64,000 nucleotides of DNA from Bryoerythrophyllum caledonicum (lineage: Eukaryota; Streptophyta; Bryopsida; Pottiales; Pottiaceae). Made by a program: the position numbers and the translations under genes. A model generated the notes under the pieces. That model saw only the letters and a list, made by a program, of their open reading frames with translations, was not told where the DNA came from and made no database searches. Shown here piece after piece: positions 2,263-45,935 of the stretch. The DNA lies in assembly GCA_963971425.1 (NCBI GenBank), contig OZ020526.1:4739976-4803975 (forward strand), written 5' to 3'. Positions within the stretch are counted from its first letter, which is position 1; each line of letters starts with the position of its first letter.

Positions 2263-4264
2263 CTACTTCCGGGTCAACTCCTCAAGTCTTCTCTTCTCTT
2301 CCCTCCTCTTCCGCTTCTTCATGCTCTTGCTCGAAGTCGGATGGGCTGCGGCCTTCGCGAGCGTCCCAAGAGGGGATAACAAATCTGCAGATGAAGAGGG
2401 TGCCGATCCGGCCATGGATGACCGAGGCAAGCCCTCCATCGAAGTCAACGAGGCATCCGGGCCACCCGGAGTGAGTAGCATGGAAGTAGTGCCCTGGTGG
2501 GGCTCAGACCAGGCTGGAAGGACCGGTACCACGCTAGGAATCCCAATGAAGATCTCATGAACGGAGGTGTGTCCCAGCTTGCCCTCAGTCCGTACTGGAA
2601 GGTGCAAGTAAGCTGAATTCTCACTAGTGGTATTCCCGAAAGGAGACATGCCCTGTAAAGGAGCAACGGTCGATGTAGTGCGACCGGGGTCTCCAAGGAA
2701 AAATTAGCGAGGAAGAGCCGTGCGCGGAGGCTCCATCATGGCACCCGTGCACTCCTTCCTCACGCTCTGTACCTGTGTGGTGATATCTGAAGGGGAATGG
2801 CAGGCAGTGACTCCCACAAGTGGAGTCCGTGAGAGCAGAACCGGGCTATCCAGATCAATCACACCTTTTCCCGTTGGAAGGCCTTGGTCACCCAAGTCTT
2901 GCCTCTCCGAATCAGCCTCTGAACCAGAATCGTCATCCTTGCCCGCGCCATCAGCTTCCTCCACAATCTTAGGCAGGATGTGGATGAGGTTACTCACCAA
3001 CATCCTCATGTTAGCATAAGCTGTCTCCAGCTTCACCATCTGCTCCACCATAAAAGCGATTACCCTCTTGCTGGAGATATGGCCATCTCTCTCCAACTTG
3101 GCATCGAACATCTTGGCCTTCAACACTGCATCCGGTGGAAAGTGCAAGGCCTCCTCCACCTGTTGTAACGCTGATGCTGAGGCATTGGCTTGGAGACATG
3201 CCTCCTTCCAACCCTTCTCTGCCTCCAATGCCCGACTCCTCACCTTGGCCATGTCGAGGTTGAGCCGGTCCACCTTTTGCTCCATGATGCGGAGGTCATT
3301 AGCACCTCCCATTTTCTCCTTGACTGCTGCCATCAATCCATGGCTAGGTGGATTGCCCACCAAGCCACTCACCTGCCCCAACGTCCTCTCCACGTCGTCC
3401 ACATACACCCGGAGAGCCTCTACCAACTCGGAGGCCTTGTAAGTCTTACCTCCAAGTAGAGTTGAACCGGTGGTTGCTGCTCGAATAGTTGCGCGGGTCC
3501 GTCTGGAAGGAGCTCCACCTTGGTGCTACCTCTGTCGCTTGGAAGGGGGTGGTGCCTCCTCCTCTGATTGGGATGCACTGCTCCCTCCCTCCGATCCTGG
3601 CTCGTGCTCTGACTCCGTTCCCTCGAACTTCCTCAACATGAGCTAGGTTCCATACACCACATCCTCATCCAACGTGGTCTCTTTGAAGTGGAGATAGAGA
3701 TGGATCAGGAATGGACAGATGGGAGAACGCCTGGTGCTCCCCACACACTTGGCCAACCTTAGTACTACCTCCTTCACGATGATGGCCCAATTCACCGTCC
3801 TTTTCCCCAGGTAGGCTCCATACAACGTGTTAGCCAAAGTGACGGTGACCCGGGTGGGTCTCTCAGGATACAAGATGGGTACAAGGAATGATCACCCGTT
3901 TGGCACGGGGGTCCAAGCAGTCTTGCAACGCGTAGCCGTTCTTGGCGTCCTTGGCCCCGAACCTCCCCTTGGCATACTCCTCCTTCTTCAAACTCGTCCA
4001 TCCCGCGCCCTAGCGTGGAAATCCGTACACCTCCTGCCACTTCCCCATGGTCCACCGTTTGAGGCAAGCGCGGATACTATCTCCCTCCGGCTCTGGCAAG
4101 GGGTCCTGACGCAGCTCCTGCACCGTGGACTCGATACAAAACCTCCAACAAAACTCAAGGAGAGAGAGATATCCCATGCGGAGAAGGTCCTCTTTGAGCT
4201 CCGTGAGCTCAAGAGGATCCTTCCGGACAAGAGGGCAGATATCCCTTACCACTGAAAGAGCCAT
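2263..4264 (-). pseudogene. Broken retroelement-like ORF chain with coiled-coil region
   Basis: Reverse-strand coding sequence interrupted by stops and frame changes. The first part (4264-4010) is in one frame. From about 3873 down to 2263 a second frame runs on, broken only by stops near 3640, near 3526 and at 2706-2704. The middle (about 3426-2707) is charged and helical, with Glu/Lys/Gln-rich heptad-like stretches, an acidic Asp/Ser/Glu patch, then a Pro/Ser-rich stretch and a basic tail (KKRKRREEKRR). The segment around 3870-3640 reads like the plant-mobile or putative plant transposon proteins found in LTR elements. That resemblance is from memory and uncertain. No protease, reverse transcriptase or integrase motif is visible. 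Most likely it is a non-autonomous retroelement protein. The forward-strand ORFs across this interval are shadows. Confidence 0.5.
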
Positions 4265-4341: not shown

Positions 4342-4475
4342 TGGTGAGGGCAGTGGGTGAGGTCCGCGCTCTTCCGGTGAGGTCCTCTCGCAAGCTGCCG
4401 GTGAGGTCCTCTTTACACGTAGCTGGTGAGGTCTGCTCTCAAGGCAGTTGGTGAGGTCTGCGCCCTCTCACTGGT
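4342..4475. repeat. Minisatellite, ggtgaggtc units
   Basis: Five copies of a unit centred on ggtgaggtc, spaced roughly 25-30 bp, upstream (on the reverse strand) of the retroelement ORF chain. Confidence 0.7.
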
Positions 4476-4481
4476 TTCGAT

Positions 4482-4719
4482 CTTCGTGGTGATCCTGCTG
4501 GTCTGGTCTTGCTCGTCGTGGTGGTCCTGCTAGTCTAGTCTTACTCGTCGTGGTGGTCCTGCTAGTCTTGCTCGTCGTGGTGGTCATGCTAGTCTTGCTC
4601 ATCGTGGTGATCCTGCTGGTCTTGCTCGTTGTGGTGATCCTGCTGGTCTGGTCTTGCTCGTCGTGGTGGTCCTGTTGGTCTTGCTTGTTGTGGTGATCCT
4701 ACTAGGTCTTGCCCAAGAT
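4482..4719. repeat. Minisatellite, about 30-bp unit
   Basis: About eight units of the form cttgctcgtcgtggtggtcc followed by tgctagt or tgctggt. Some units carry a 5-bp extension (ctggt), giving 30- and 35-bp variants. On the reverse strand it reads as Asp/Gln/His/Arg-rich low-complexity peptide, but no real coding role can be supported. Confidence 0.85.
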
Positions 4720-6660: not shown

Positions 6661-7187
6661 CTACGACAAATGTGCTTGTCTGAGTAATCTCATTTTGTAG
6701 GTAATAAAGAATACGGAAGGAAAGTGTAATTTTATAGAAGGTCAGTTTTTTAGAACGATTGAAATGTATTGAAGGGCATTTTTAGGGGAAGAGGCATATG
6801 GCGATTTAAATAGATAAAGTATCCTGGTGGAGTTTGTTTTTAATAGAAGAACAGTTTAGACATTGAAATCATGGTGTTTTTAGGGGGGTGTCAGAGTCAA
6901 ATATAAAATGTTTTTAAATAAGTATAGTTAAGATTGACAAAATTTCAAATTTCTAGAGACGGAGGTGGCAATTTTAGTTGAAATTCAGCTAAGAGTTGAT
7001 GCATTTAGTTTTCCATAGTACTTTGTGGTGGCGAAATAGTTAATTTAACCAATATGGGTTGGTTAGTAAGAAGTCTCTTTCAAGGCATGACAAAAAGTAT
7101 TGGTGAATAGGCAATATAGGCCACGGTTAGGATGCAGATGTGAGTTGTTATGTAGGACTATGGTAGTGGCAATAAAGGCTGAGAGTA
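6660..7187. other. AT-rich intergenic DNA, nothing recognised
   Basis: Composition changes here from GC-mixed to AT-rich. No ORF, inverted repeat or tandem array stood out. Confidence 0.4.
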
Positions 7188-7472
7188 ATGCAAGAGGGGC
7201 CTAAGAGAAAGAAACAGAGGAGAGGTCTAAGATTTTCCACTAGGAAACAACTTAAGAATTCTAGAATGGCCGAGCGTTATCAGACCAGGTTAGAAGAAGT
7301 CAGGGCGACATCTTTGGCTACTATTTTTGAAGGCATGGCTAGTGGAGCCGCAGTGGCGGGTGATTGTGCAGAGAGAAGTAGGCTTAATAACAATGCTAGG
7401 AACAATCTATTAGAATCACAAGCAGACTCTGAAGCATGCGATGTGTGCGGAAATCTAAATCCTGTATCCTAA
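7188..7472 (+). CDS. Small ORF of unknown function, doubtful
   Basis: A 94-codon ORF opening with a strongly basic stretch (KRKKQRRG) that would resemble a nuclear localisation signal, followed by an Ala/Asn-rich region and a CxxC pair near the C terminus. I do not recognise the family. No splice sites, no neighbouring exon in frame and no close relative in the window support it. It may be an exon remnant of the decayed gene downstream or a chance ORF. Confidence 0.2.
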   Translation: MQEGPKRKKQRRGLRFSTRKQLKNSRMAERYQTRLEEVRATSLATIFEGMASGAAVAGDCAERSRLNNNARNNLLESQADSEACDVCGNLNPVS

Positions 7473-8250
7473 AAGCCTAATTCCTCATGGATTTTATGCA
7501 AATTGAGTCTTAGTACCTCCAGAGTCCCATTTCGGGCTTCCTGGGCGGTAAAAGGTTAAAAAGTCTTAGTTGAGATGAGTTAGAATTTGAATCAATAGTG
7601 TATTTTCTCTCTTACTAATTCACTAGAATCAACAGATTTGAAGTGTATTTGATGTGAAATTCTCATGGGAATATAGGGATTAACTAACTGAAATGACATC
7701 CAAATGAAAGATGATAGTTGATCAATCTTAAACCCACAGGTGTTACCGTTGCTAATCTTTCATACATTTCTTGAAAAATACTTTGAGTATAATATGTGCA
7801 TGCATATACGGTTGCCAACTGACGACTGAGTGTTAGGAGGTTGCTAATAGATCAGATGCTTATAGAAAGGACTTGACTCTAATAAATTTGACATGGTTTT
7901 CATGGAATGCTTCTCCATTGTGCAACCGAGAGCAACCGTCAGGGATGATCGAGTTTTGAGATGAATTGCAGTATCATCCAATTGCAAGACAAGGACAAAG
8001 GCCACTTTCTAGTTGAAGTGGTTGTCGGGAATGGAGGTAGGGTTCAATCTTCAAGCCGAACCCTTGTCGGGAAGACTGCCAAAACACGGTGCGCTTTGGA
8101 TTAACCCCACTCATCTGCTCACTTTTGTTTAGAAGAATTCAAAGCGTCTTTGTGTACACATCTTCTGTGATTGATCTGTCTGCAGCATTGACGTCAGGCT
8201 TTGCACATGCTTTTTGATACTGAGGATCCCATCTTAAATTCTATCGTTGG
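7473..8250. other. Intergenic DNA, nothing recognised
   Basis: AT-rich with no supported gene. A short stretch near 7960-8040 reads as a possible open exon in one frame, but neither edge has a convincing splice site. Confidence 0.3.
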
Positions 8251-8499
8251 TTGTGTGTGGACACACTGCAACACCACACCGCAATCAAGTTGTCGATGGG
8301 GGCCTTGGACCACTTCCACATTCTGTTCGATAGCACGCTCTACTTCGTGGTGCACCGGCGCTGCTCCTGCATCGGCGGCATGTGCTACCTCAAGCTGCCC
8401 AAGGTGTTGTCGTCAATCTACAACACGGTCCACTACCAAATGGAGATCCGTGCCGTCGATGACACAACTTTCAAGGTGGACGCCTTGAGTGCTCCATAG
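8251..8499 (+). pseudogene. GC-rich exon-like fragment, unknown product
   Basis: Between about 8281 and 8490 the GC content rises sharply and third codon positions become mostly G or C (for example CTCAAGCTGCCCAAGGTG). This resembles the GC-rich exon 3 of pTAC6/PAP8 in this window and not the local DNA. One frame stays open for 82 codons, contains a Cys-rich stretch (RRCSCIGGMC) and ends in TAG. No family was recognised. The abrupt compositional island and the lack of flanking exons suggest a captured or broken host-gene exon. Confidence 0.35.
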
Positions 8500-9775
8500 A
8501 GGACTGCAAGGACACGCCGTGCGACAGATTCGTGGGTGTGCCGGACGACCTCATTGTAGAAATATCGGTCTTGTTCTTGCCTCGGCACCCTCCACTGTGT
8601 GTGCTTTTTACGGTGCGGGGTAGAGCCTTGGGAGAAAGTGTTTGTAGAATCTTGTTTGTTGAAGTTGATGGAGAGGGCTGGAATCGAGGTCGATGGTTTG
8701 GTCAGTGTGATTGAGTCGAGATCTAAATCCACTTGAATTGAATAGTCGCGATGATTTTGAATTTGAAAGTTTTTCAGCTCCTCGAAAACGAGGTGGCATT
8801 TCTAGCGATCAAGTCTTAGCTGTCAGGGTTGTGGCGGTATCCGAGTATCGTTGCATGCCTTGTTTCTTGGACCTAAATCCTATCAGTTCTCCAGTGGCGA
8901 GCGTCGCATGAGTACGGCGGAGGCACTTGAGATTCTCAAATTGGATTGTTTTGAGTTCCTCGGGAACGAGGAGGCATTCCCCTTGTTGATTTGTAACTTG
9001 TCAAAGTCGTTACGTAGGCTCAATATTGGAGCAACCGCAAATTTAGGGTAATGATTTCTCTGACTTGAGCCCTACAGAGGCTGCCGTATTGAGTTCTTCA
9101 TCCGTTCTATCTTCGCACTCGAATCTAGCTACCATGTTCTTTTGTGGAAGGATTAATTGTGAGCATATTGCTTGAGTCTAAATGACTGTGAGCAAACCTG
9201 ATGAGTCCGAACATTTGTGAGCATGCGTGTTGAGTTTGAATGACGGCGGCAGAGTGTACCAGGGAGAGAGATTAACCTCCTCGGTACCAAGGAAGGCAGT
9301 TTTGAAATGGATATCTATTGTCATGCTTTCAGTGCACTTATAATTGTTGGATTTGCTCCGAGTTTAATCTTCACCTGGTGGATTTTGAGCTTTGGTGTCT
9401 TCATCCTCCTTCAGACCAAGGAGCCACAACAATGGTATTCTTGAGCTTGACACGGTGCATGTGCACCATTTTTTGAGCGACGTGTTGCAAGATTTGGAAC
9501 CCAAGCAAATTAAGTGTATGAATTCAAAAGCTGATAAACGATTTCAACTTCTGAACGTATTTGTTATTGAATGGGTATTGTTGTAGGTGAGAGGTGAAGA
9601 AGTTGACTGTTGTGAGTCACTTTTATTCGACGAAGATTTACAAGTGTGATTTATAATTTTCATACCGTATGGAAGTATGGAATGGGAGATGTAACTTCAC
9701 AATGGATTGTCTTTATTGTCTTTGATGTCCATTTGGCTGCTTCGATAATCTTTGCTCGTGGGCGAGCTTGGAGCC
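8500..9775. other. Intergenic DNA with diverged duplicated words
   Basis: No supportable gene. Related segments around 8770-8810 and 8930-8985 share agttcctcg(a/g)aacgagg-like and ggcattt/ggcattc words, suggesting an old local duplication. The ORFs here are under 70 codons in low-complexity DNA. Confidence 0.3.
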
Positions 9776-12700
9776 ATGGACCAAGGTTTTGAGGCATTAA
9801 AGAATGTTGGGGATAAAGATGCTCCAGAGAGTGGGTCGGTTAATGTTGCCAATTATGAAGGAATTGCGGGGTAGAAGGAAATGTTTGTTGAGGACATTGC
9901 AGTCCAAGATCCCTCGACAACAGTCAATGTCAAGGATGATACTGCACTACAAACCGAGGTATTGAAGAATGTTGGAGATGAAGTAACTGTCGTGATTGAT
10001 GAATCCTTGGTGGACGATGGGATGGGTGGACTCAGCATCGACGAGGCCGAGAACGCCTTCTTAGTGAAGGAGAAGCTTGATTCCATCTCAATAATATAAG
10101 AATTGTGGTTCAAGCCAATCACTTCATTTTGCTTGAAAATCCTTCTTTGTAGAATGATTCCATTGCCTTTAGTCTGTCCACACTTGCACTCTGATGTAAG
10201 ACGTTTGGAGGCCGAGTTCGTGCATGGCTATCGTGAAGGGGACCGGGTCTTCTATGTGTCCATTTTTTATGACATATGGAAGCCTTAGTTGGCTACAAAA
10301 GAAGAATGGGCACCTCGGACTGGCACTGGCTTCAAGAACACAAAGCCTTTGAGTGACAACTAATTCTTGACGACCATTGGTCTTGCCTCTCCGGTCATAT
10401 GTTTTTTATTTGGGATGGGAACCATAGGTTTCAAGCATGGAGTAAGTACATCTCCCGTTTGCATTGAGACGAAGCCAAATGGCATAATGAAGTTGACTCC
10501 ATAATCCTTACTTTGAAGGGCAATACTGGCATTCTTTTAAATGCAATGACTGACATAAACATATAAGTTTGTGAAAAATATATATGTTATGAAAGTAAAT
10601 TGATCTAAATTGTGTCTGAACTTCTAATTGGATTAGTTTATTTTTCAGGTCCACGGAGCATGCGCATGTCAAAACAAACCTCGTTCATAAACTGCATCGC
10701 ATAAATACATATGGGGTTTTGAAATTGCCGGATTTCAAAGACTTACTCAATGAGGATGAGTACAAGGCCTCTGAGACTAGACCAAAATCTTATCCACGGT
10801 ATCCAGTAACATCGGATGTCTTCATCAAATTTTTGAATCGAGTAAAAAACTCTTTTGACACAGGAACTTCATGTTGAAGTGTTTGCTAAAATTTGTTTAA
10901 AACCTGATCCATGACTTGCTCTATGTAGCAAGAGGTGTTGGCCGCTGGGGATGAAGCGGCTAGGTTGTACTTGGAGAAGACAAAGAAGACAATATGTTTT
11001 GCTCATGGCATACACAATGCAATGAATAGTGCGTCCAAAGAAAAAATCAAGTCCTTCCGCACGGAATAACCGTTGTCAATTCTAAGCACGGCCCAAAGTT
11101 TCTTGAAGTGGTAAATGAACTTCTCTAGAGTGGTTTGAATAAATTTTGAGTGCGGTGAATGAGTCTTTTTTCCATAAAATGCAGGTTAATTTCCATTGGA
11201 ATCACTTTGAAAAGCCGGAGATATCTTTGGAAAAGCTGCAGAAGATTTCATCAACAAACGCCATATCCATTTAATTGAGACATTTCAGAGTCTCAAATGA
11301 GTGACTTTGAACTTGAGAGTAGTATGGATGGAAGTCTCAAACTTCGTGAAATGTCTCAATTTAACGAATATGACCATAACAGTTGTGGAACCCAAGTTTA
11401 AAGAGAAGTGGTTGAATTGGTGGAATTCAGGAGATTTGAATCGTATGGCCCTTCAATTTCGAGCAGTTGGTGTCACGGACGAGAAACTTGAAGCATGGCT
11501 GACTAAGGCTGCTTTCTGGGTTGAGGTGAAGTACCTTCTTAGTCTCACCCTCGAACTGTTACGTTCAAGAATTCCCGGATGTTGAATTAGCGACCCCGCC
11601 ATCACCTTACGGGTTTCGGACAGAGTCTTGCTGCTAGGATGTAACTTACAATATTTAAAGCCTCCTTCTTTATTCATCGAAGTGCTCATGGACACTCTAG
11701 TGGCGTGGGAGTCCTTGGTAATGAGAACTGTCCAAGTTGTCTCCAATCCACTTGATATACCCACTAATGGTGTGGTGCAATTTGTCTTATTTCCCTAAAC
11801 TTTCAATTTCTCTTTATCTTAGATATTTCAAAAGAGAGTTCCTTCATAAAAAAACAATCGACAAGAAATCATTTCCAAAATTGTTTGGAGCTTGGTTGGA
11901 GAAGAGTCTAAAGGATACCTATATGTTTACATTTGGCCAAGGACATGCTTACAATTCAACCAAGCACTGCACTTGTCCATGGTACTTGGAATGCTTGAGG
12001 AAATTTGCCCCTAGCAAGGGGCAAGATGAGAAGGTTGGCCAAACTCCTCAAATCCAAGTGCATGAGGGAGACTCTGATGATGATGTCAATGGAGACGCCC
12101 TTCCCGAGGTAGAGACAAAGAAGACTTCCAAGAAGGGCAAAGAGACTAAAAGCGCCAAGGAAACCAAGGAGCCCAAGAAACAAAGGAGGCAAAAGAGACC
12201 AAGAAATCGAAGGAGCCTAAGGAGACCAAGGGAAATAGTTCAAAAGAGAAGGATAAAGATGAAACAATTGTTGTGGTTGGTGCTGCGGAGAATATTTCTG
12301 TGGCAACCCTACATCCTGGCACGTTGAGTAATCCAACACATTGTCCTACGGATTTACTTTCTGTGCCAGCTAAAATCTTTGTTTCATGACATCTTTATGC
12401 ACAGACTGCTAAACGCATAGATATACATGGCATTGATAGCAAGGTCCTTGTCTTGAAGACTTCTATTAACACCATCACAGAGTACATGGTAAAATGCATC
12501 AACCGTCCCCTGAGTTCTTACAATTGCTAGTGTTTGCAAAAAAGGTATGCCTCAAAGACTCCATTTAGTTTTATCTATCTCCATGCAATCATTATTGTTA
12601 CATGTGCCATTACATGTTCTAATGTTCTATCTTTCTTGTTGCTCTTTGCCTTAGGTGGGTCTTTCTCACCAACGACAGCTTGGTGGTGTGTCCAAATAGG

Positions 12701-13798
12701 AAGCTTGCCTTGATCTTATTATGGCTCATATGGCCGATGGACTTCCAATCCCAGGTATAGAATCATTTGTCTCCACATGGAATTTGTTACACGATGAATG
12801 GCCAGAGCCCATTTTGAAGTAGCCCCTGACACGCTATAAGACGACGGGGTAATTGAGCTATTCCACCCTGATATTCTAGAGGTCCGGCTTACTACGAATG
12901 TCATTGCAGAAGCTTACGGGTTTACAGCGTTGTATGATTGGTGGGGCTTGAACGAGATGCTCCTCACATCGTCCAAAGGCAACTATTGCACCGTACTAAT
13001 TGCTACCCTTTCAATCTTCCAAATCTTTCCCTTCTACAACATATTCTCTATGTCTCTAACCGGTTATGAATTGTGGTGCCCTGTCAAATCTTAGAGTTAG
13101 CAACTCTTTCTTTAGTTTTATCTTGAACTAGGCTTTCTGCATGTGGTCATTTTTATGTGGTCATCTTCATGTCATCCTCAGTGATTTCTCTAATGTTTAT
13201 TGACTTTTGACTTTCAGACTAAGCGCTTTTGGATTGTCCTCTATGTCAAAGAGTCCTACCACAATGAGATTCTTCTGAGCAACTTTTCCATTGAAAAAAT
13301 CGACACATTAGTAATCTGGGCACTGACATTGTCAAGGAGGGGTCCTTCACAACTACACTACCCCAATCACTGCCTTGAAGAATGGTGAGAAATTGTGGAG
13401 AAGAGCTCGTGAGAAGAGTCTTGTCTTTGTACAAGTGCTTCTTGAGAGTTTTTCCAAACCCGGGGATGTAGTGCTCAGCTGCAATGCTTCAATTGTTACT
13501 ACCTTTACTGTGTTTTTTTCCATTGTTGTTTGAATTTTAACTTCTTCAACTTGCATTGGTTCTCAAGCGTCGTTATTTTGTATTTCAAGGAGCCAGCATT
13601 CATGCTTGCCATCAAAGTGGGCGCCATCTCATAGCTTTGGAGTTCGATGCCGAAATCTTTGAGGTCGTCCTAGTTTGACTCTGCGCTTTTGTTTCCCCAG
13701 AGGACTACACTCTAAAAAAGCAAAAGGAACTTGCATTCAAAGCCAAATTGCATGTGGATAGACCTCTGAAGAGAATCTTGCAGAACCGCATGTGTATG
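9776..13798 (+). pseudogene. Decayed multi-exon gene: ParB-like domain plus DNA-methylase-like domain
   Basis: Coding pieces in order on one strand. (1) An acidic N-terminal exon, ATG at 9776, broken by TAG at 9872 and ending at 10099. (2) 10100-10560, with frame changes, holding a GYREGDRVFYVS stretch and the motif WDGNHRFQAW (DGNHR at 10414-10428), as in ParB/Srx-type nuclease folds. (3) Exon-like pieces behind acceptor-like sites at about 10650, 10930 and 11183. (4) A Lys/Glu/Thr-rich linker (about 12060-12280) crossing a frameshift near 12180. (5) Pieces at about 12394, 12658 and 13218. (6) 13459-13491 PGDVVLSCNAS, continued at 13589 by GASIHACHQSGRHLIALEFD, which together resemble motif I and the following acidic strand of class I DNA methyltransferases. 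(7) A last exon after tttccccag at 13701. ParB-like plus N4/N6-methylase is a bacterial/phage-type architecture. The stops and frameshifts make it a pseudogene. Domain calls are from motifs only. Confidence 0.5.
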
Positions 13799-13799
13799 T

Positions 13800-15975
13800 A
13801 GGTCTATGCCCTTTTTTATTTGCCTTTGTTTTTGTTTGAGTTTCTTCATTAATATGACATCAAGATTTGAACATTACTCTCCGTCTTTGCAGGTTGGTAG
13901 ACCTTTTTCTAGTCCTCCAAGTGCATTGCCCTTGCCATATTACATCAAGGCAAATGGCCATCAATCTTGGGTGAAAGCCAACTACGCTTGTACTGTACAA
14001 ATTTCTGTCCCACGCACAATTCAGGGCAGGGTGCAAGTTTGGACTCAATTTTAGACTAGATTATTTTATATTTTGGAGGAAAAATTAGTAGGTATAGCCC
14101 TACATCTTGCATAAATTAAAGATTAAGAATCAAAATATTTATTGCATTAAAAAAAACCTTATAACAAATACAGATATAAAATATTTGTACTGTCCCAATG
14201 CAGAATTCACATGTTTGTACTCATAATGTGAACTTATTGATAGCAATTTTAAGTTTTAAAGAGCTATATATGATCTTGTACTCTTTGGCTACTATATTCC
14301 ACTATTTAAATATGTCAATTGATAGCCAATTGACCAAAAACGTAACAAATGTGATTTTTTTGAAAAGTCCCAAAATATGAGTGTAAAGTTATTTTTTTCT
14401 AATTTTTTTTTGGAACTAGATACAAGGACTATTGGTGCAGATGGGCCATTAATTGAATTTTGAAAAAAACAAATTTTTTCTCCTCATTTCTTGCATTGAA
14501 GATTATTCTCCCTATTTTGCCATAGTTTTTTTTAAATTCTCAATGTGTGAATTGTAATTGGATGTCAATAGGTACGACAAATCCACCATGTGCACGACAG
14601 GAAAGATACCCAAAAATCCGCCGGGAATTTGGAGACTCCAAATATTGTACAATTTGTACCTGTTGTACAATTTGTACAACGGCCAGGGGGGCGACCGTAG
14701 TGTGCGATCACCCTCTTGCAGAGTAAGATATTTTTGTGCCAGTCCCTCATTCTCCTCCGTACGACCCAAAAGTCTGTAGACACATTGACTATGAGGCAGA
14801 GGAGGCTATTGATGTTACTAACAGTGGCAACACTGAAAGCGGTCTTTCTACTAGTTCTACGTGTGCATCACCAGTGTGTATCACCAGCTCAAATTGTCTT
14901 TTAAAGCCTTGAATTTATTCAATTTATGCATTTATTTCTTCCATGTAGTGAGACTAAAAGGGCCACTACTCATAAATTTCTGACCTTGTCTACTCTGATT
15001 GTCCCACATTTATTTCATGACTTTGGAATTTGATTCATACAGGACTCTAAGTGTGTCTTACAGACCATCCCGCCACTTGTTCCATTTTCCGTCGTCACTT
15101 TTACTATTTCAGTGTTTATATAAAGGAAAACCTAGTTCATTAAGTCGGATCTCCTTGTCTTCTTTATTGTTCCATGTGATAGCTGTTGTTTGTCCCATAT
15201 TGTTTACCTCAAACCCATTTCGCTGCACATTTATTGAAACTAATTTAACAATTGTATTAAGTACTATTCTAGCACTTGTAAGGGGGGGACCTCTTTGTTG
15301 CCTTCACATTCAAAAGACGAAGGCAGCAAAGGGGCCCTCCCTTTGAAAGTATTCGATTAATAGTTTTAAATGTTCTTCCCTTTTCAACCTAGGTACTTTG
15401 ATTTTTCCGTCTATTGTTTTTTAAATGAAGATCTTCTAAATCAAAAACTTTAAAATGTAGCTTAACTACTTCTTGACAAATGATGAAAAAGTTTCTCTTT
15501 TATTCATTTCTTCAATACCCCAATCCGCAAAATATACTTCAGTTAGGTTCTACAAGCTCCTTTGGTACCGAGGAGCCCTTATATCCGTGCTGCTTGTTTT
15601 ATTGCATTGAAGGTTAGAAATGTTATTTTCTTAATGCTCATCACAATTCATAAATTGTTTGCGTGAATGGCTCAAGGGCAAGTTCCTGACTAAACCAAGC
15701 AATGAAGATCCACTTAAGGCATATAAGTTTTTTGATTCTTTCCTACAAGGTTATAACCTTCTACTTGACTTCTTCCATCAAAGTCATTCATCCACTTCAT
15801 CCATCTGCATTCACTCATCTCATTATTCTATCCATCCACATTCATCTGGGTCCCTTTAAACATTGATTTCCAAGGTTCTGAATCCCCTTTTTTGCTATTA
15901 ATATATTTTTGATCGACCATGGATATAGGCGTCACAGACAATTAATACACCCTAAATCATCCGAATTTCGATCTT
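13800..15975. other. AT-rich intergenic DNA
   Basis: No supported gene. A piece after tctttgcag at about 13893 stays open in one frame to 14051 and may be a further exon of the upstream pseudogene. Around 14646-14682 there is a short palindromic stretch (ttgtacaatttgtacaa words). The rest is AT-rich with no pattern seen. Confidence 0.3.
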
Positions 15976-16614
15976 TTGGAGTGCGAAATTCAAATATATA
16001 ATCCCTCATTGCTCACTACTCACTGCTCACATTCTAGCATTCTTGGAGTTGGAGATGTCTCTAGATGTGAGAATACTCCAAAAACGAGAGAAGATGTAGG
16101 TAGAGAGTTTCCAACAAGATCGGGTGGAGTGAAGGTTGCAAAGGCAGAGCAATTGCGCTTGAAGGGAAAAGAGAAAGCAATTCATTGCCACGCGGATGCA
16201 TCGGAGAAGACAGCTACCTCGTACATGATCAAGGCAGAAGGACTTAAGGAGCAGAATGATATGTTTTGTTTTCAGATGGATCTAACAATTGAGACTACTA
16301 AGGAATACATCCGGTTGAAACAAGAGGATGCCTTGCAAAGATTCAAGGAGAAGTTGGTGGCTGAATTTAAGCCGAAGAGAGAACTACAGGCCCTATTGGA
16401 GCATCAATAGAAGGCCAAGGCTGTTGCACCCACCGTGGATGAAGAGGAGGACTATGAAGTTGAAGTTCATAGTGATGATGTGCCGGATACCCGTGGTAGT
16501 GAGTTTGATGTGGATAACTTTAATGCACAAGAAAATCCTGTATATTATAGTCCCACGTCTACTTATAGAGAAGTATATCCTGGTAATATGGGGAGGTCAT
16601 TTCCACCGATGTAG
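15976..16614 (+). pseudogene. NAM-associated C-terminal-like domain fragment (PIF/Harbinger-related)
   Basis: The ORF to 16410 has, from about codon 40, the layout of the NAM-associated C-terminal domain found in plant Myb/SANT-like proteins encoded beside PIF/Harbinger transposases. It has a basic GGVKVAKAEQ-type opening, an Ala/Glu helix, a KAEGLKEQNDMF-like segment and an EYIRLKQEDALQRFKEKL helix. The frame stops at TAG (16408-16410) but continues open for about 67 more codons with an acidic EEEDYEVEVHSDD region, so that stop looks like decay. No upstream Myb/SANT domain or transposase is visible. Family assignment rests on pattern recall and is moderate. Confidence 0.45.
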
Positions 16615-17082
16615 AAAACTGGACAAGTCCTAAAATTCCCAATAGGGGAGTCTTTCCTTGACCTGAATCTTGTAGAGGGGGGATGGCTTAGAATTTGGAG
16701 AAGTTAGAGGGAGAGACATGAGAGGTTATATTCCAATTTTCCTAGGACATTCGGGTCACTAGAATCCTATTGGAAAAATTAATCCTTCGCAAGCATCGAG
16801 TTCAAGCCAGTTTTGTGGAGGAGAACTAGGGGGATATGGCCAAGGAAGTGAAAAATATTGCACCGGATTGGATGGGACACAACGCAAAGATTAGGCACAG
16901 ACGTTAGGGGCTTTGCACCACCTTTCACCTACTTGATGAAACTACATTATTTCACTTAACAATAAAACTCCAAAACATTGTGGAAACTAGAGGAGTTAAC
17001 AATAATCCACCTCCCTATGTGTAACCACAACTCCATAAAACATAAAGGCATTGACGGTTGGAGAGGTAGGCAAGTGCTAACA
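16615..17082. other. Intergenic DNA, nothing recognised
   Basis: No ORF or repeat that can be supported, apart from the tail of the fragment upstream and a short ggtaggcaagtgc word that foreshadows the tandem repeat downstream. Confidence 0.3.
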
Positions 17083-17255
17083 TACAAAATTTGGAGACAA
17101 AAAATGAGGAGGGCGCCTACCCTCCTTTGCACATACAAAATTTGGAGGCGAAAAATGAAGAGAGGATAGGGAAGCGCCTACCCCCTTTGCAAATACAAAA
17201 TTTGGAGACAAAAATTGAGGAGGGGGTAAGCAAGCACCTACCCTCCTTTGCACAT
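17083..17255. repeat. Three-copy tandem repeat, 51-60 bp
   Basis: Units begin tacaaaatttggag at 17083, 17134 and 17194 and end cctaccctcctttgca or a close variant. The first unit is shorter (51 versus 60 bp) because it lacks the taggcaagc-like middle. Confidence 0.8.
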
Positions 17256-18632
17256 AAAAAAAAATTAGAATTATGTTTCAATGTGCACTTTTACTATGGC
17301 ATGTGCACTTTTATTGAATATGGTGATAAGGGATGTTTTTATTTGTTGCCAGAGTTGCAATGTTTAAAAGTGTATTGTGTTTGACTTCCCCATTCATAGT
17401 GTATGTTGTATGCAACATTGCGAATTTGTCATATTTGTTTAGAATTGAAATAACATTGATGCCTTCCATACTTGTTGCACTATAGTCAAGAGTTTTGAAG
17501 ACCTCGTGATGCCTGCAGAAGAAGAATAATTGATGAAATAGCTCCAAGTGGCCAAAATCAGGTCCTCGAAATTTCTTTTGAAAAAAGATTACAAGAGAAG
17601 TGACAAACCATCTGCAGGAAGTAAGAAGAGTGTATGTACAACAATGTTGAAGATCTAGAAATTCATGTCTAACAATCAATAACACTCATCAGCATTAGTC
17701 ATCTACAATTATTTGAAACTAGTATACTAACTCGTTGTCCTCAATGAGGCAAGGGCAGTCCTTGCTCTAAAAGTACAAAAAAATGTATTGAAAGTTACCA
17801 AGATATACACCTTTGGATTGAAGACTCTTTAACCAATATCTTTCATTATCTAAACCTTTTCATCTTCAAGTACGACACCATATATGTAGAATACATAACC
17901 ATTTTGCAACTCCTCAAACATATTGTAGATGCAACAATGATTTGAATTTGAAATGCCACGTGTCATTGAATCGGGCTCAACAAAGATACAAACTTTTTGT
18001 AACTATCGTATACATCAATTCACATGCAAAATATACCTTTCAAATACGCAGAGAGATCATCTTGCAACCCAAATGTGGCTTCAACACAAATGCAGAAAAC
18101 TTGGGCCAAAAGTAGGAAACACACATATATATAAACTTCTGCTCTAAAAACTTGTTGAGGTTCTTGTGCATTAGTCCAATGAGATGAATTTGTATTGGTA
18201 CACAATAGTAGATGCTCACAAAAACCTAAGCTGAGATAGGTTAAACGACTATACATAATGAAGCCTATTACATGGAATGTCAGTAGCGATCCAATCCTTG
18301 CTCCATCTTGTCCTCCATAAGCGCTACTCAACGAACTGCTCTTTAACCTTAGCATGTTCTCTACATTTAAACCCTAAATTGCTTCACATAAGTCATGTGC
18401 AGCATCCTCTGCACTGGTATATGATGTAACCAAAAAGGAGCAGTCGGCACAAGATCCACGGTATGGATAAGAGCGGAGTGAATCCACACCAAAACATGAC
18501 ACCAAAATGGTCTTCCATTCAATACAAAAACCTCCACCATGTTACTGCAAAAACCTCCACCACCTCCAACAACATCAAATATTAAAAAAGAAAAGGCGTT
18601 CACACAAAACCATTGGCACTCGCTTTAGCATG
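17256..18632. other. Intergenic DNA left of the Tc1-type insertion
   Basis: No supported gene; reverse-strand ORFs of 78-124 codons here show no recognisable domain. The stretch 17803-17900 shares ttgaagactctt and accatata words with 52748-52850, marking a diverged dispersed repeat. Confidence 0.3.
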
Positions 18633-18634
18633 TA

Positions 18635-18661
18635 CAGTGGTCAGCAGAAGTGTTCGGACAG
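18635..18661 (+). repeat. Left terminal inverted repeat of the Tc1-type element
   Basis: Twenty-seven bases starting CAGTGGTCAGC and ending TCGGACAG, identical in inverted orientation to 20275-20301. The next base differs, so the repeat ends there. Confidence 0.97.
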
Positions 18662-18822
18662 TAATTACAATCTCAATTTAATAGTAACACTTGTCGAGTT
18701 TGGTAGGTAGGTGCTGATTTTTTCAGCTAATTATAACTAAAGAGCCACTTGTAAACTAGAAAGAGTACCATCATTCACATTGAGCCACTTGCATGGGCTG
18801 CAGTTCATGATGTGTCAATCAT

Positions 18823-18843
18823 GGGTGTCCAATTCATTATGCA
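18823..18843 (+). repeat. Left subterminal inverted repeat of the Tc1-type element
   Basis: The gggtgtccaattc core followed by an attatgca-type tail matches, inverted, the sequence at 20094-20113, with about one or two differences. It sits about 160 bp inside the left end and could be an internal transposase-binding site. Confidence 0.7.
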
Positions 18844-18947
18844 CACAAGTTGTGCATCTGAAAAATCTTGAGAATCGACATGTATTTATGGAGACCTCTT
18901 GCATTTCAAGACACATTGTGATTGAATAAGATTGCTCTTGATTAGCT

Positions 18948-19973
18948 ATGGCTCCTAGAAGGACTCTTGCTGAACGTAAGTTAGTTCTTCAGATGCATGA
19001 GAGAGGGAATTCGTACTCCGAAATTTCAGCGGTTCTAGGCATCTCTCGAAGCACTTGCCATGTTATTGTGCGGAGGTTTACAATGAGAGGTCATTTGAGA
19101 GATGCTCCTTCACAAGGGAGACCTCGAATTCTTGATGAACGTGGTGATCGTGAGGTTGTAAGGTTGTTGAATGCACCATCTAATGGTACAGCTGCAGCAG
19201 TGGGTAGAGAAATGCGATCTCAAGGATTGGATTTGAGTGATGATACAATTAGAAGATGTCTTCAGAGGCAAGGATTGAGAGCACGAGTGAAAACTAAGAA
19301 GCCATTCTTGTCAAAGAAACACAAAGCACGTCGATATGCATGGGCAAAGAAGTGTAGGCATGCAAGTTGGATGGACTGGAGTTATGTGGTTTTTTCAGAT
19401 GAGTCAAAATTCAATTTGTTTGGCTCAGATGGGAGGCAGTATTGTTGGAGGAAGAGAGGAGAGCATCTTTTAGATCAGCATGTGCAACCTACTATCAAAT
19501 TTGGAGGTGGAAACATTATGGTTTGGGGATGTATGACTTGGGAGGGAATTGGCAACCTTCGTCTTATAGAAGGAAACATGGATAAGTTTGTGTATCGTGA
19601 AATTTTGGAGATGGAGCTCATGAATACTATACACATGTATGATTTAGGAGAGGAGAATGTTATTTTTCAGCACGACAACGATCCCAAACATACTTCTAAG
19701 TATGTTACAGATTGGTTGTTAGCACAGAAGTTTCAACTAATTTGGCATCCGGCTCAATCTCCTGACTTGAATCCTATAGAACACCTTTGGAATGAAGTAG
19801 ATCGTCGTATGAGAATGTCAAAGAAGAAACCCACTAACAAGAAGGATTTGTGGGAGAAATTGCAAGAAATTTGGTATAGCATTGAGATTGATACCGTGAG
19901 GAAATTGATCATGTCTATGCCTGAGAGAGCTGCAGATGTTTATCAAGCAAAAGGTGGCTATACACGATGGTAG
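18948..19973 (+). CDS. Tc1-type DDE transposase, intact
   Basis: A 341-residue protein, the usual Tc1 transposase length (about 340). Residues 1-50 form a paired-like helix-turn-helix (AVLGISRSTCHVIVRRF). A GRPR AT-hook-like motif is at 57-60 and a second helix-turn-helix region at about 65-115. The catalytic triad is readable: D151 in VVFSDESKFNLFG, D243 in IFQHDNDPKHTS and E278 in SPDLNPIEHLWNE, with 34 residues between the last two (DD34E). The Gly-rich box FGGGNIMVWGCMTWEG is at 185-200. The enzyme would cut and paste the element by binding its inverted repeats and inserting at TA. The ATG at 18948 starts the conserved N-terminal helix; no other ORF lies in the element. No stop or frameshift is present, so it may be active, which is inference. 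Confidence 0.95.
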   Translation: MAPRRTLAERKLVLQMHERGNSYSEISAVLGISRSTCHVIVRRFTMRGHLRDAPSQGRPRILDERGDREVVRLLNAPSNGTAAAVGREMRSQGLDLSDDTIRRCLQRQGLRARVKTKKPFLSKKHKARRYAWAKKCRHASWMDWSYVVFSDESKFNLFGSDGRQYCWRKRGEHLLDQHVQPTIKFGGGNIMVWGCMTWEGIGNLRLIEGNMDKFVYREILEMELMNTIHMYDLGEENVIFQHDNDPKHTSKYVTDWLLAQKFQLIWHPAQSPDLNPIEHLWNEVDRRMRMSKKKPTNKKDLWEKLQEIWYSIEIDTVRKLIMSMPERAADVYQAKGGYTRW

Positions 19974-20093
19974 TCATTATGATTGTACATTCAAGTTTTT
20001 AGGTAGTCCTCATGATTCTACATTCAAGTTTTTAGCTTGATTTTGTAGCTCATGGCTTTGTTTCCAATGTAAATAGATAACCACTTCACTTTT

Positions 20094-20113
20094 TGCATTA
20101 AGAATTGGACACC
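20094..20113 (-). repeat. Right subterminal inverted repeat of the Tc1-type element
   Basis: The gaattggacaccc core is the inverted partner of the left subterminal repeat and lies about 190 bp inside the right end. Confidence 0.7.
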
Positions 20114-20274
20114 CACATCATGTGTTTTATTTTTGATTGATTTCTTGATTGACATTTTTTATTATGAATGTTATGTTACATGTTTTTTGTAACTATGTGA
20201 TTGTATGTTTAAATTTTTACAACTTGAATGTGAGTTACGTAAGAAAACTAGCTCATATTGGAAGTGGAAGCGTC

Positions 20275-20301
20275 CTGTCCGAACACTTCTGCTGACCACT
20301 G
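20275..20301 (-). repeat. Right terminal inverted repeat of the Tc1-type element
   Basis: Exact inverted copy of the left 27-bp terminus, followed at once by the TA target duplication (20302-20303). Confidence 0.97.
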
Positions 20302-20303
20302 TA

Positions 20304-20668
20304 TATGAGAGACGCCTGCCTTACCGCTGTAGACGTGAGACTCCTACCACAGTACTCGAGAGACGCCCTTCTCAACCTTGATCAAACCATCTCACATGCC
20401 CTAAATATGTTCAACTGGCAACTTCGCACATGGATAAATACATTCATCCAGGACCACACATTTCATCCAAGAAGCCTCACTGGATAGGATCTCAAGCATG
20501 TACAGTTTCGAAGGAAGGGCTTTCGCAGGGTTTATCACTCGCACTCTCTCTCTCTGTCTCTCGCTCACTCTCCCCGCAAGAAGAATCCAAACACCAACCT
20601 CGCCACCGAACCGGCACAATCCCCATCTTTTCCACCATGCGCTGACCAGAATCGACTCATCCTCCACA
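20304..20668 (+). promoter_or_regulatory. Proximal promoter and 5' leader of pTAC6/PAP8
   Basis: Only 365 bp separate the transposon target site from the chosen start codon. The interval holds a TATA-like ATAAATA (20434-20440) and a pyrimidine-rich CT tract (20541-20577), typical of plant core promoters and leaders. The transcription start cannot be fixed from sequence. The transposon has displaced whatever promoter elements lay further upstream by 1.67 kb. Confidence 0.5.
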
Positions 20669-40604: not shown

Positions 40605-41470
40605 CCCTAAAGGATCGGGCCTTGTGCTTCACCAAAACCACACCAAAAATGCCAGTTTGCAATGAGATATTATTAGACTTATTCAAAGTCTTTTTATTAT
40701 TTTCAACTCTTGGATCTTCAAGCTTACTTCTACGGGAAAACACCCAATTTTTTTTGTAAACTCTGACCGTACGGGTCAAAAGATAAATGCATTTAAGGAG
40801 TGAAAATTTGTTTTTTCCTACTGTGCTCGAACTGGTTCAACATACTTTGACTCAAGATAATGGCACATTTTTCCAATACACATTGCATAAACTCAATGGA
40901 TCTATGTTCTACCTTGTGTAAAGTCATTGCAGGCCAAAATCCACAAGTTATGGAGGCGTTTGCAATAAGAAAAATGGACCTACAACGACCACGGGTATAG
41001 AAAGTGGCTCTTTATTTATGAAAGCCATTTTATTTTCAAATAAATAAATAATTGTTGGATCTTATATCCAAACAACTAAAAAAATCATTATGTCATATTC
41101 CAACAATATAAAACAATGTTTTAAAAAAAAGGTAAAATCCTTAATTTCTATGCGTTTTTAAGTGAAAACAATTATGGTAGCCAAGAACTTCCCTTCACTA
41201 CTACCCCTCACAAAGTGCAATTGTCAACTCTACAATAGCACTATTCATCTCTAGAGTACCCTCCCAACTGCCAAAAGAGTCGAGCTTTATATGTTTGAAG
41301 CACCATAATTTTTTTCCTATAGCTCAAAAAAAGAAAGAAAAAATTCCCCTGAAAGTTAACCCGTATTTCTATTAGCAGTAAAATTTCAGGAAGTTGTCTT
41401 TTAAAATGGAATTTTAGGAACCTCCCCAAAATTGATTTGTGCCCAGTAGGGACAAATTGTCCTCTAGAGG
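40605..41470 (-). mobile_element. Family T2-related element, second subfamily, 866 bp
   Basis: Left end CCCTAAAGGATCGGGCC and right end ctctagagg, flanks decayed to TCAT and TTAG. The interior differs from the main subfamily but keeps the same end structure and the aacctccccaaaattg block. Its right third is part of the duplication with 45012-45328. Confidence 0.6.
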
Positions 41471-41803
41471 TTAGAAGTACTATTTTCCCAATTTCTATTC
41501 TCTCGTACAGATCATGCATGGGAGAGATATTGGCTTTATGGGCTGCACGTACTTCTGAGTCCAGTTAAGCAAAATTAGCATCCTTAATCTGTCTTGGCAT
41601 GTCTATTGTACAAGTTGCCATTACACATTTAATGATATGAGGTGGGCCCAGTGCAAATTTTAGCACAGATAGAAATCACCATGTGGAGATCAGGTTGAGC
41701 ACTTTTGTACCAATAATTCAGTATATATATATCCTCATTCCGATTTAAGAATGTTCTGATGTGTAATATGATTCATTTTTCATACAAAAATGCATATGCA
41801 GAA
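41165..41803 (+). repeat. Segmental duplication, copy A (partner 45012-45935)
   Basis: About 640 bp almost collinear with 45012-45935 (shared gtagccaagaacttccctt, tcatgcatgggagagata, gatatgaggtgggcccagtg). It lacks the 281-bp SINE-like insert present in the partner and so gives the empty site aatatgattcattttt. Confidence 0.9.
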
Positions 41804-45011: not shown

Positions 45012-45935
45012 ACAATGAAGGTAGCCAAGAACTTCCCTTCACTAAGACCTGCCTCAAAAAAGTGCAATTGTCAACTCTACAATAGTACTATTCATCTCTA
45101 GGGTATCCTGCCCAATTGCCAAAAGATTCGAGCTTTTTATGTTTGAAGCACCAGAACTTTTTTCCTATACGTCCAATAAAAGAAAAAAAATTCCCCTTAA
45201 AGTTAACCCGTATCTCTATTAGCAATAAAATTTCAAGAAGTTATCTTTTAAAATGGATTTTTAGGAAGCTCGCCAAAATTGATTTGTCCCCCATAGTGAC
45301 AAATTGTCCTCTAGAGGTTAAAACTACTATCTTCCCAATTTCTATTCTCTCATACAGATCATGCATGGGAGAGATATTGGCTTATGGGCTGCACATACTT
45401 CTGAGTCAAGTTAAGCAAAACTAGCATCCTTAATCTGTCTTGGCATGTCTAATGTACAAGTTGCCATTATACATTTAATGATATGAGGTGGGCCCAGTGC
45501 AAATTTTAGCACAGATAGAAATCACCATGTGGAGGTCAGGTTGAGCACTTTTGTACCAATAATTCAGTAAATATATCCTCATTCCGATTTTAGAATGTTA
45601 TGATGTGTAATATGATTTTTTTTTTCTTTCTTTTTTAACACAAGTAAAGATTCCTTCACTGCAAAGGGAAGAGGGAGAGCATGCAAGGGGCCCGAGCAGA
45701 CCTCGCCAGGTCCAGCGAGGCCGGGTAAGCACCCGGACTAGGGTTAGAGGTTAATGGGGGGGTTAGAGCTAGAGATAGTACTAAGATACCTAGCGTACGA
45801 GTGCCAGTGTGGCTGCTTGTCAACCTAAGAGGCAAGAATGTCGTTGCAGCACCAAAGCTCTTTGAACCGCCTCAAAAACTTCCTACTCTCTCAGGGGCAT
45901 ATGATTCATTTTTCATACAAAAATGCATATGCACC
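45012..45935 (+). repeat. Segmental duplication, copy B (partner 41165-41803)
   Basis: Collinear with copy A but interrupted at 45618-45898 by the SINE-like insert. Differences from copy A are scattered substitutions and small indels. Confidence 0.9.
45618..45898 (-). mobile_element. SINE-like retroposon, 281 bp, with empty site known
   Basis: Flanked by the exact 8-bp duplication ATATGATT (45610-45617, 45899-45906). Copy A of the segmental duplication has a single uninterrupted ATATGATT at the same point, which proves insertion. On the reverse strand the insert ends in an A-rich tail. It is GC-rich, with ccaggtccagcgaggcc shared with the copy at 35283. No clear A/B box promoter was identified, so it may be a SINE or another short retroposon. 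Confidence 0.8.

Follow-up and report, generated by a model that had tools for sequence, protein, structure and literature searches.

A putative accessory gene with a methylase-like domain in a large, abundant DNA transposon of Bryoerythrophyllum caledonicum

The accessory-gene pseudogene in the window

The stretch of DNA analysed here (the window) comprises 64,000 nucleotides of the Bryoerythrophyllum caledonicum genome (assembly GCA_963971425.1; contig OZ020526.1, referred to as C15, positions 4739976-4803975). The genome that was searched amounts to 437,360,962 bases in 894 contigs; because it contains 58 chlorophyll a/b-binding matches it is that of a photosynthetic plant, in line with the plant origin given in an initial annotation of the window. 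That annotation, made from the letters of the window, had described a decaying pseudogene between positions 9776 and 13798 that combined a ParB-like DGNHR domain with a DNA-methylase-like domain. Alignment with intact copies from the same genome indicates that the feature is a defunct copy of the second (accessory) gene of a large and very abundant plant DNA transposon. The protein strings quoted in the annotation were found where it had placed them: FFIWDGNHRFQAW is encoded in a single frame from 10402 onward, with DGNHR at 10414-10428, KPGDVVLSCNAS lies in the frame of 13381 (with PGD from 13459) and GASIHACHQSGRHLIALEFDAEIFEVVL begins at 13589. The strings and the gene are thus real, but the interval was drawn too short, as the gene continues to about 14870 and the element that carries it ends at 16045.

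The features of the window copy are listed below. D1 and D2 are complete elements of subfamily D located elsewhere in the genome, the D1 protein is the 1119-residue product of the intact accessory gene of D1 and TCCTCGGTACCGAGGA is the palindrome of subfamily D; all are described in later sections.

6687..16045, + strand: transposon copy, decayed and truncated on the left, subfamily D-like (blastn against elements D1 and D2)
7176..7472, + strand: remnant of a small basic open reading frame (ORF) between the two genes (tblastn with the D1 ORF, 53% identity, E = 1.6e-14)
8957..8972, unstranded: palindrome site with two mismatches to TCCTCGGTACCGAGGA
9278..9293, unstranded: palindrome site with one mismatch to TCCTCGGTACCGAGGA
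9777..14870, + strand: accessory-gene pseudogene, comprising the DGNHR domain, a middle part of no recognized family, the Lys/Glu linker and the methylase-like domain (tblastn with the 1119-residue D1 protein)
9971..10560, + strand: exon 1, aligned part with the DGNHR-containing domain (DGNHR at 10414-10428)
11823..12547, + strand: exon 6 with the Lys/Glu-rich linker (alignment to the D1 protein)
12655..12992, + strand: exon 7 with the altered methylase motif IV (LDLIMAHMADGLP in the window, LDLIIADMPDGLP in D1)
13218..13491, + strand: exon 8, methylase-like domain as far as motif I (PGDVVLSCNAS; alignment to the D1 protein)
13589..13795, + strand: exon 9, strand following motif I (GRHLIALEFD; alignment to the D1 protein)
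13970..14713, unstranded: insert of about 0.74 kb splitting exon 10 (D1 17801-17805 bridges window positions 13969 and 14714)
14715..14870, + strand: last part of exon 10 (56% identity to the D1 C-terminus, E = 5e-10)
15559..15574, unstranded: palindrome site with three mismatches to TCCTCGGTACCGAGGA
16012..16045, unstranded: right terminus with GCTCAC subterminal repeats, ending in ..CATTCTAGCATTCTTG (same terminus in D1 and D2)

In the blastn comparison, positions 8478-9174 of D1 align to 6687-7430 of the window and positions 13601-18638 align in pieces to 10006-16053, with identities of 65-80%. At 6687, its left edge, the copy breaks off close to the 5' end of the transposase ORF. Almost all of the transposase gene is missing, and no significant transposase match was found within the 64-kb window. 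The right edge at 16045 is a D-type terminus, and neither a duplicated target nor a matching left end was found in the window. The small basic ORF may represent a separate gene or a 5' exon.

Exons 1-4 and 6-10 of the ten exons were recovered in order by tblastn with the intact copy from the same genome (E = 4.4e-130 for the best group of segments), and exon 5 gave no tblastn segment in the window. The aligned exon segments are interrupted by seven in-frame stops (10097 TAA, 10286 TAG, 10354 TGA, 10465 TGA, 12387 TGA, 12697 TAG and 12837 TAA) and the reading frame shifts within exons 1, 6 and 7, which is consistent with the pseudogene in decay described earlier. An altered genetic code was ruled out because TAA, TAG and TGA all interrupt the frames, which in addition are shifted. 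When joined, the window pieces match PF01555 (N6_N4_Mtase) with E = 0.0016, under the curated cut-off, and the C-terminal part of the gene, taken in pieces, matches phage methyltransferase families (best PHROGs match 6.2e-6). The DGNHR part gave no Pfam match in single pieces, and searches of phage and plasmid sequences and of PHROGs with this part were likewise empty.

Complete elements elsewhere in the genome

Elements were read in 10-kb stretches around seven copies and in four further stretches to the left of four of these. Complete elements contain two divergent genes, a transposase-like gene and the accessory gene, which are arranged head-to-head on opposite strands. Elements A1 (on C1; 14,371 bases) and A2 (on C8) lie on different chromosomes and are 99.88% identical over 14,371 bases, and elements D1 (on C2; 15,859 bases) and D2 (on C12; 15,916 bases) are 97.6% identical. 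All four have a 10-bp target duplication (GGTGACGGCT, CCATACGCAC, ACATTGGATC and CCATCAAGGC). Imperfect terminal inverted repeats (TIRs) measure 45 bp at 87% identity in A1, 56 bp at 87.5% in D2 and 28 bp at 89% in D1, and those of both the A and the D elements carry GTGAGC-type subterminal repeats. A relative of the empty site of A2 is located inside the window (3399-3553, 73% identity); once the 10-bp duplication is removed, its alignment is gap-free at the junction. This site belongs to a repeat (2589-4213) which borders A2 on both sides.

The TIRs, the target duplication and the related empty site all fit a TIR DNA transposon of the cut-and-paste type, and we assign the element to this type; its mobility we infer from the related empty site and from the near-identical copies on different chromosomes rather than from a directly observed jump. 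Intact paralogues in the same genome, terminal repeats around them and mobility had been anticipated in the initial annotation, and all three were borne out.

The transposase-like gene consists of two ORFs (730 and 485 residues in A; 747 and about 470 residues in D), which are 45-47% identical between A and D and are both open in A1, A2 and D2. Blocks conserved between A and D, picked by eye, are DHVKRVKGWTT (YDHVKR/FDHVKR), GFMAD.AQANWN, C..HW and C.C..CKH; they were considered as possible traces of a DDE/D RNase-H core and a SWIM zinc finger. Searches of these ORFs against Pfam and PHROGs gave weak unrelated matches at best and PADLOC gave no match; PF10551 (MULE) matched neither the transposase ORFs of A1 and D1, at E values of up to 10, nor the isolated D1 core. 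The gene is called a transposase here on account of its position, its conserved blocks and its abundance. A suspected GCM-type zinc finger was not confirmed by Pfam and is not claimed. A transposase that escapes recognition by Pfam may define a group that is overlooked by annotation pipelines. In the D elements the C-terminal part of the transposase is also present a second time, incompletely, close to the left end (positions 3625-3840 of the joined D1 sequence), and to the right of D2, beyond 18652, lies transposase-like sequence from another copy.

The family is present in high copy number. The window DGNHR exon (exon 1) returned 1455 first-look candidates in the genome, the best 150 of which were scored; among these only the window copy is 100% identical, the others having identities of 44-77%, and many are stop-free open frames that fall into sets with identical scores. 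For the transposase, the best 150 of 2290 candidates were scored. Linkage was evaluated for 178 distinct exon-1 places, obtained by merging the 150 entries of a second exon-1 list with the first 40 entries of the window-exon list described above. A listed transposase match lies within 15 kb of 63 of the 178 places, and the arrangement is head-to-head in each of the 63. For the second exon-1 list alone, 45 of 150 places are linked to a transposase, compared with a mean of 1.4 by random placement (142 chromosomal places). The transposase comparison comprises the best 150 of 2290 candidates, and the remaining 115 of the 178 exon-1 places do not show that a partner is absent.

These counts bear on an alternative origin for the gene, namely that of a host gene family, domesticated or acquired, which has been multiplied passively with repeats. 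The window copy taken alone does resemble a decaying gene, and a related gene on a 4.7-kb contig from another source (L155, discussed below) has no transposase on that contig. However, the same head-to-head partner accompanies the gene at all 63 co-located distinct places, and in four of the four elements the TIRs and 10-bp duplications enclose both genes. This origin is accordingly disfavoured and we consider it very improbable. The gene family proposed in the initial annotation, mobile or domesticated, therefore holds as far as mobility is concerned but not as a decaying host gene family, the gene being an accessory gene of a high-copy DNA transposon. An acquisition of the gene from bacteria is at most conjectural. 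The boundaries, the TIRs, the 10-bp duplications, the high copy number, the near-identical copies and the open reading frames can be regarded as established from sequence, as can three features treated in the next section: the low ratio of nonsynonymous to synonymous substitution rates in exon 1, the methylase fold and the palindromes that differ by subfamily and are found mostly in noncoding DNA.

The accessory protein and the palindromes

The accessory gene of D1, with splicing modelled by hand, has ten exons and nine GT-AG introns, in agreement with the intron-bearing gene postulated earlier; it is open throughout and encodes 1119 residues. In the protein the DGNHR domain is followed by a middle part of no recognized family, then by a charged linker and an N6/N4-methylase-fold domain. 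In a Pfam search with the whole D1 protein, only PF01555 and a weak SKA1 match were returned. The PF01555 match spans positions 30-218 of the 221 in the profile and scores 35.5 bits for the excised domain (E = 1.3e-8) and 30.2 bits for the whole protein (E = 5.4e-7), both over the cut-off of 26.7 bits, and the methylase-like C-terminus that had been recognized in the window is thereby confirmed. The A copy falls under the cut-off (E = 4.9e-5, 23.8 bits). A search of the genome with PF01555 gave eight places over the cut-off, all of subfamily B and 97.8-99.5% identical where compared. For exon 1, the ratio of nonsynonymous to synonymous substitution rates (dN/dS) is low, at 0.07, 0.08, 0.17, 0.30, 0.47 and 0.53 in six pairs (ratios given without a significance test), the first two at a dS of about 2.4-2.5; the seventh of the seven pairs was saturated.

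The motif-I-like sequence D..AS.G is kept in the intact copies that were read. The canonical consensus of motif IV is [DNS]PP[YFW], from which the open copies depart: these have DMPD (C and D), DIPE (A), DQPF (B) and DVPE (the outside relative L155), and the window has HMAD. The aromatic residue is gone in four of five lineages despite open frames. Because motif IV is altered, we regard the domain as having a methylase fold but doubt that it is catalytic. An accessory protein that acts as an N6-adenine or N4-cytosine DNA methyltransferase, writing a foreign mark on the DNA of the element, would be in keeping with the PF01555 fold over the cut-off, with the retained D..AS.G and with the DQPF of subfamily B, which is near the consensus. 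Eukaryotic precedents for such an enzyme, the bacterial-type proteins of Marchantia and bdelloid rotifers that mark host DNA, are also described in excerpts of PMC12344493 and PMC8885841. On the other hand, DMPD, DIPE and DVPE lack the aromatic residue in four of the five lineages while their frames are still open, and an active methyltransferase seems unlikely. Given the noncanonical motif IV, binding or a changed reaction would be expected rather than ordinary methylation to N4-methylcytosine (4mC) or N6-methyladenine (6mA).

Relatives of the accessory gene were absent from IMG/VR, and from GTDB when window pieces were used as queries; the family alignment found only L155 in GTDB. L155 (CADCWO010000058.1) is a 4.7-kb contig in a Synechococcales bin and carries an accessory-gene relative with frames broken as by introns; for this reason it is probably plant contamination of the cyanobacterial bin, and it suggests that the family is present elsewhere. 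A defence-system reading was rejected, as PADLOC gave no match.

The DGNHR sequence is invariant in 11 of 11 aligned members and fits the G.xxR-type loop of ParB/Srx. The likeness to ParB consists of this string and of its surroundings as judged by eye. Homology to ParB/Srx, as proposed for the window gene, was not supported by profile comparison: PF02195 matched neither the single window pieces nor the intact 1119-residue D1 protein nor any of 11 diverse homologues (0/11), and hhalign against 80 phage ParB-type sequences gave a probability of about 0.1% (39 and 15 homologues; shallow queries with Neff of 1.8 and 2.6). The DGNHR part had no tblastn match in phages or plasmids at E values of up to 10, and 50 pattern matches in IMG/VR included none that codes for a relative. 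A fusion of ParB and a methylase that originated in a phage or plasmid is suggested by the invariance of DGNHR and by palindromic sites, described next, that are reminiscent of parS; set against the failed ParB profile matches, the hhalign result and the empty phage, plasmid and IMG/VR comparisons, such an origin is possible but doubtful.

Clusters of an own palindrome in mostly noncoding DNA were found in four of the five subfamilies examined. The 16-bp palindrome TCCTCGGTACCGAGGA of subfamily D has 13 sites in D1 (at most three mismatches; 0.00 expected). Eight of these are in the spacer and three are on the left side of the transposase gene; of the other two, one is in an accessory-gene intron and one is close to the right end. 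The accessory-gene exons, the transposase ORFs and the small ORF contain no site. Exact copies of TCCTCGGTACCGAGGA occur at 203 places in the genome, compared with 0 for the reversed control and an expectation of 0.03. The corresponding palindromes are CTTCGGTGCCGAAG in subfamily C (ten and nine sites in partial element stretches; 0.15-0.20 expected), GTTCTGTGCCGAAC in subfamily B (15 sites; 0.20 expected) and CTTCGGNNCCGAAG in subfamily A (four sites; 0.20 expected). None of the A, B and C stretches that were read contains the core of the D palindrome. Among 50 listed exact TCCTCGGTACCGAGGA places, 30 lie away from the compared members of the family, some of them in tight groups of two to three (for example at C3:6130374 and C2:38755988); such places are possibly nonautonomous relatives or host sites.

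Several further features of the window were noted. A compact element at 18629-20307, which is presumably of the Tc1/mariner type, has 33-bp inverted ends (32 of 33 identical) and an open transposase-like ORF of 343 residues (18942-19973), and looks recent. Two adjoining direct repeats (about 404 nucleotides together, 90 and 96% identical) at 41328-41730 and 45175-45576 lie 3.85 kb apart and form a pair resembling long terminal repeats. A repeat family of about 300-450 nucleotides is spread over 26000-63000 in both orientations, with 64-87% identity between copies; a 93% copy adjoins D1. A tandem array of the CTGGTC/CTCGTC type, in a GC-rich stretch, is located at 4471-4705.

A possible role for the accessory protein and comparison with known systems

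The anatomy of these elements resembles that of the Arabidopsis VANDAL transposons. According to excerpts of PMC5735166, VANC causes its own family to lose DNA methylation, the VANDAL target motifs are multiplied as tandem repeats within introns and upstream regions and vary among related families, and DUF1985 and DUF287 are named as VANC domains. As far as that excerpt goes, VANDAL21/Hiun (VANA, VANB and VANC) and the elements described here are alike in having a transposase and an accessory gene and family-specific clusters of a motif in noncoding DNA. The latter trait, often with tandem repetition, was found in four subfamilies (one of ten C sites being coding) and not in the 1.55 kb of the L156 copy. 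The elements differ in that here the accessory protein has a methylase fold, the motif is a palindrome of 14-16 bp and the transposase is not matched by the Pfam MULE model. In view of the VANDAL-like anatomy, we propose that the accessory protein may recognize the palindromes and alter the epigenetic state of its own element. The protein would bind the palindromes of the element that encodes it; once bound, it would change or shield the local chromatin or DNA-methylation state, and the element would be expressed or would transpose, in the manner of VANC. That this is a TIR transposon family with a VANC-like accessory protein that recognizes or marks its own element appears to us fairly probable.

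A number of observations weigh against this proposal. The second transposase ORF of D1 has one in-frame TAG, and D1, the source of the modelled accessory gene, is therefore not fully autonomous. The VANC domains DUF1985 and DUF287 were not matched by Pfam in the D1 protein. Some palindrome sites are carried in tandem repeats (of about 392 bp in D), and for this reason the palindrome counts are not all independent; one of the ten C sites (L043:7220) lies in the coding end of the gene. In the list of 50 exact TCCTCGGTACCGAGGA places, 20 are within 12 kb of the compared family matches (a partial set) and these make up four of 24 clusters. The four clusters adjoin D-like elements, one of which is the L030 copy with an exon-1 dS of about 2.4 from D. 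A fifth subfamily, represented by 1.55 kb of spacer in L156, was predicted to share the palindrome core and the prediction failed; this spacer has no shared-core palindrome and contains a different one twice. L155, the outside relative, has no palindrome site. The identity of a palindrome-binding protein, if there is one, is something that we infer, and a mechanism involving methylation could be wrong altogether, motif IV being noncanonical.

Transposases usually bind terminal and subterminal repeats. The palindromes could be bound by the transposase or by the small basic ORF product, leaving the methylase-like protein another role, such as help with integration as proposed for mudrB. The GTGAGC repeats in the TIRs would suit such binding, as would the four of 13 D1 sites that lie within 2 kb of an element end, and mudrB is apparently needed for integration (PMC6446971, in excerpt). 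Conversely, the TIRs contain none of the 13 D1 sites, and eight of these are spacer sites 5.5 kb or more from both ends. We regard this distribution of roles as clearly less probable than recognition by the accessory protein. A broader form of the accessory-protein proposal, that these are an undescribed superfamily of giant plant transposons in which a ParB-like DGNHR methylase-fold protein co-evolves with parS-like palindromes dispersed in the noncoding DNA of the element and provides subfamily-specific self-marking or shielding from host silencing, is offered tentatively.

In an excerpt of PMC6446971, MULE target duplications are given as 8-11 bp. Mutator (MULE) elements share with those described here the 10-bp duplications, TIRs, extra ORFs and possibly, as judged by eye, a SWIM-like C.C..C.H at the transposase C-terminus; they differ in that PF10551 does not match the transposases of these elements. 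Genome places matching PF10551 (138 found, with the best 150 of 384 candidates scored) were compared by eye with the four fully read elements and none lies in them. Proteins joining a ParB-like part to a DNA methylase are a known phage architecture, and in these too a DGNHR-like string stands upstream of a PF01555-type domain. Here, in contrast, profile comparisons detect no homology to ParB, and about 570 residues separate the two parts in D1.

Searches of open-licence literature, judged by titles and the openings of abstracts, listed no plant DNA transposon with an N6/N4-methylase gene, which is weak evidence of novelty. A term search of a paper on Physcomitrium transposons (PMC7466625) gave no MULE, MuDR, methyltransferase or ParB, and an excerpt of PMC9477723 held nothing relevant. 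If the accessory protein reads the palindromes, sequence-specific self-recognition would have been invented independently by a transposon outside Arabidopsis, and these elements would offer a case in which conflict between transposon and host can be tested.

The closest eukaryotic parallels for the fold itself are the Marchantia 4mC methyltransferase and the bdelloid N4CMT, which are bacterial-type PF01555 proteins in eukaryotes (PMC12344493 and PMC8885841, in excerpt). Bdelloid N4CMT also contains introns, and both are host genes, present as an allelic pair in Adineta and as a recent duplicate in Marchantia (excerpt of PMC8885841). The accessory gene resembles them in encoding an N6_N4_Mtase fold in a eukaryote and, in the bdelloid case, in having introns; as far as those excerpts describe them, theirs are host genes, whereas the gene described here is carried by a transposon in many copies, its motif IV is altered and its N-terminal part is large. 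On several occasions DNA-modification enzymes of bacterial type have become host genes in eukaryotes; in the present case the methylase fold travels within a multicopy transposon together with repeated, subfamily-specific palindromes.

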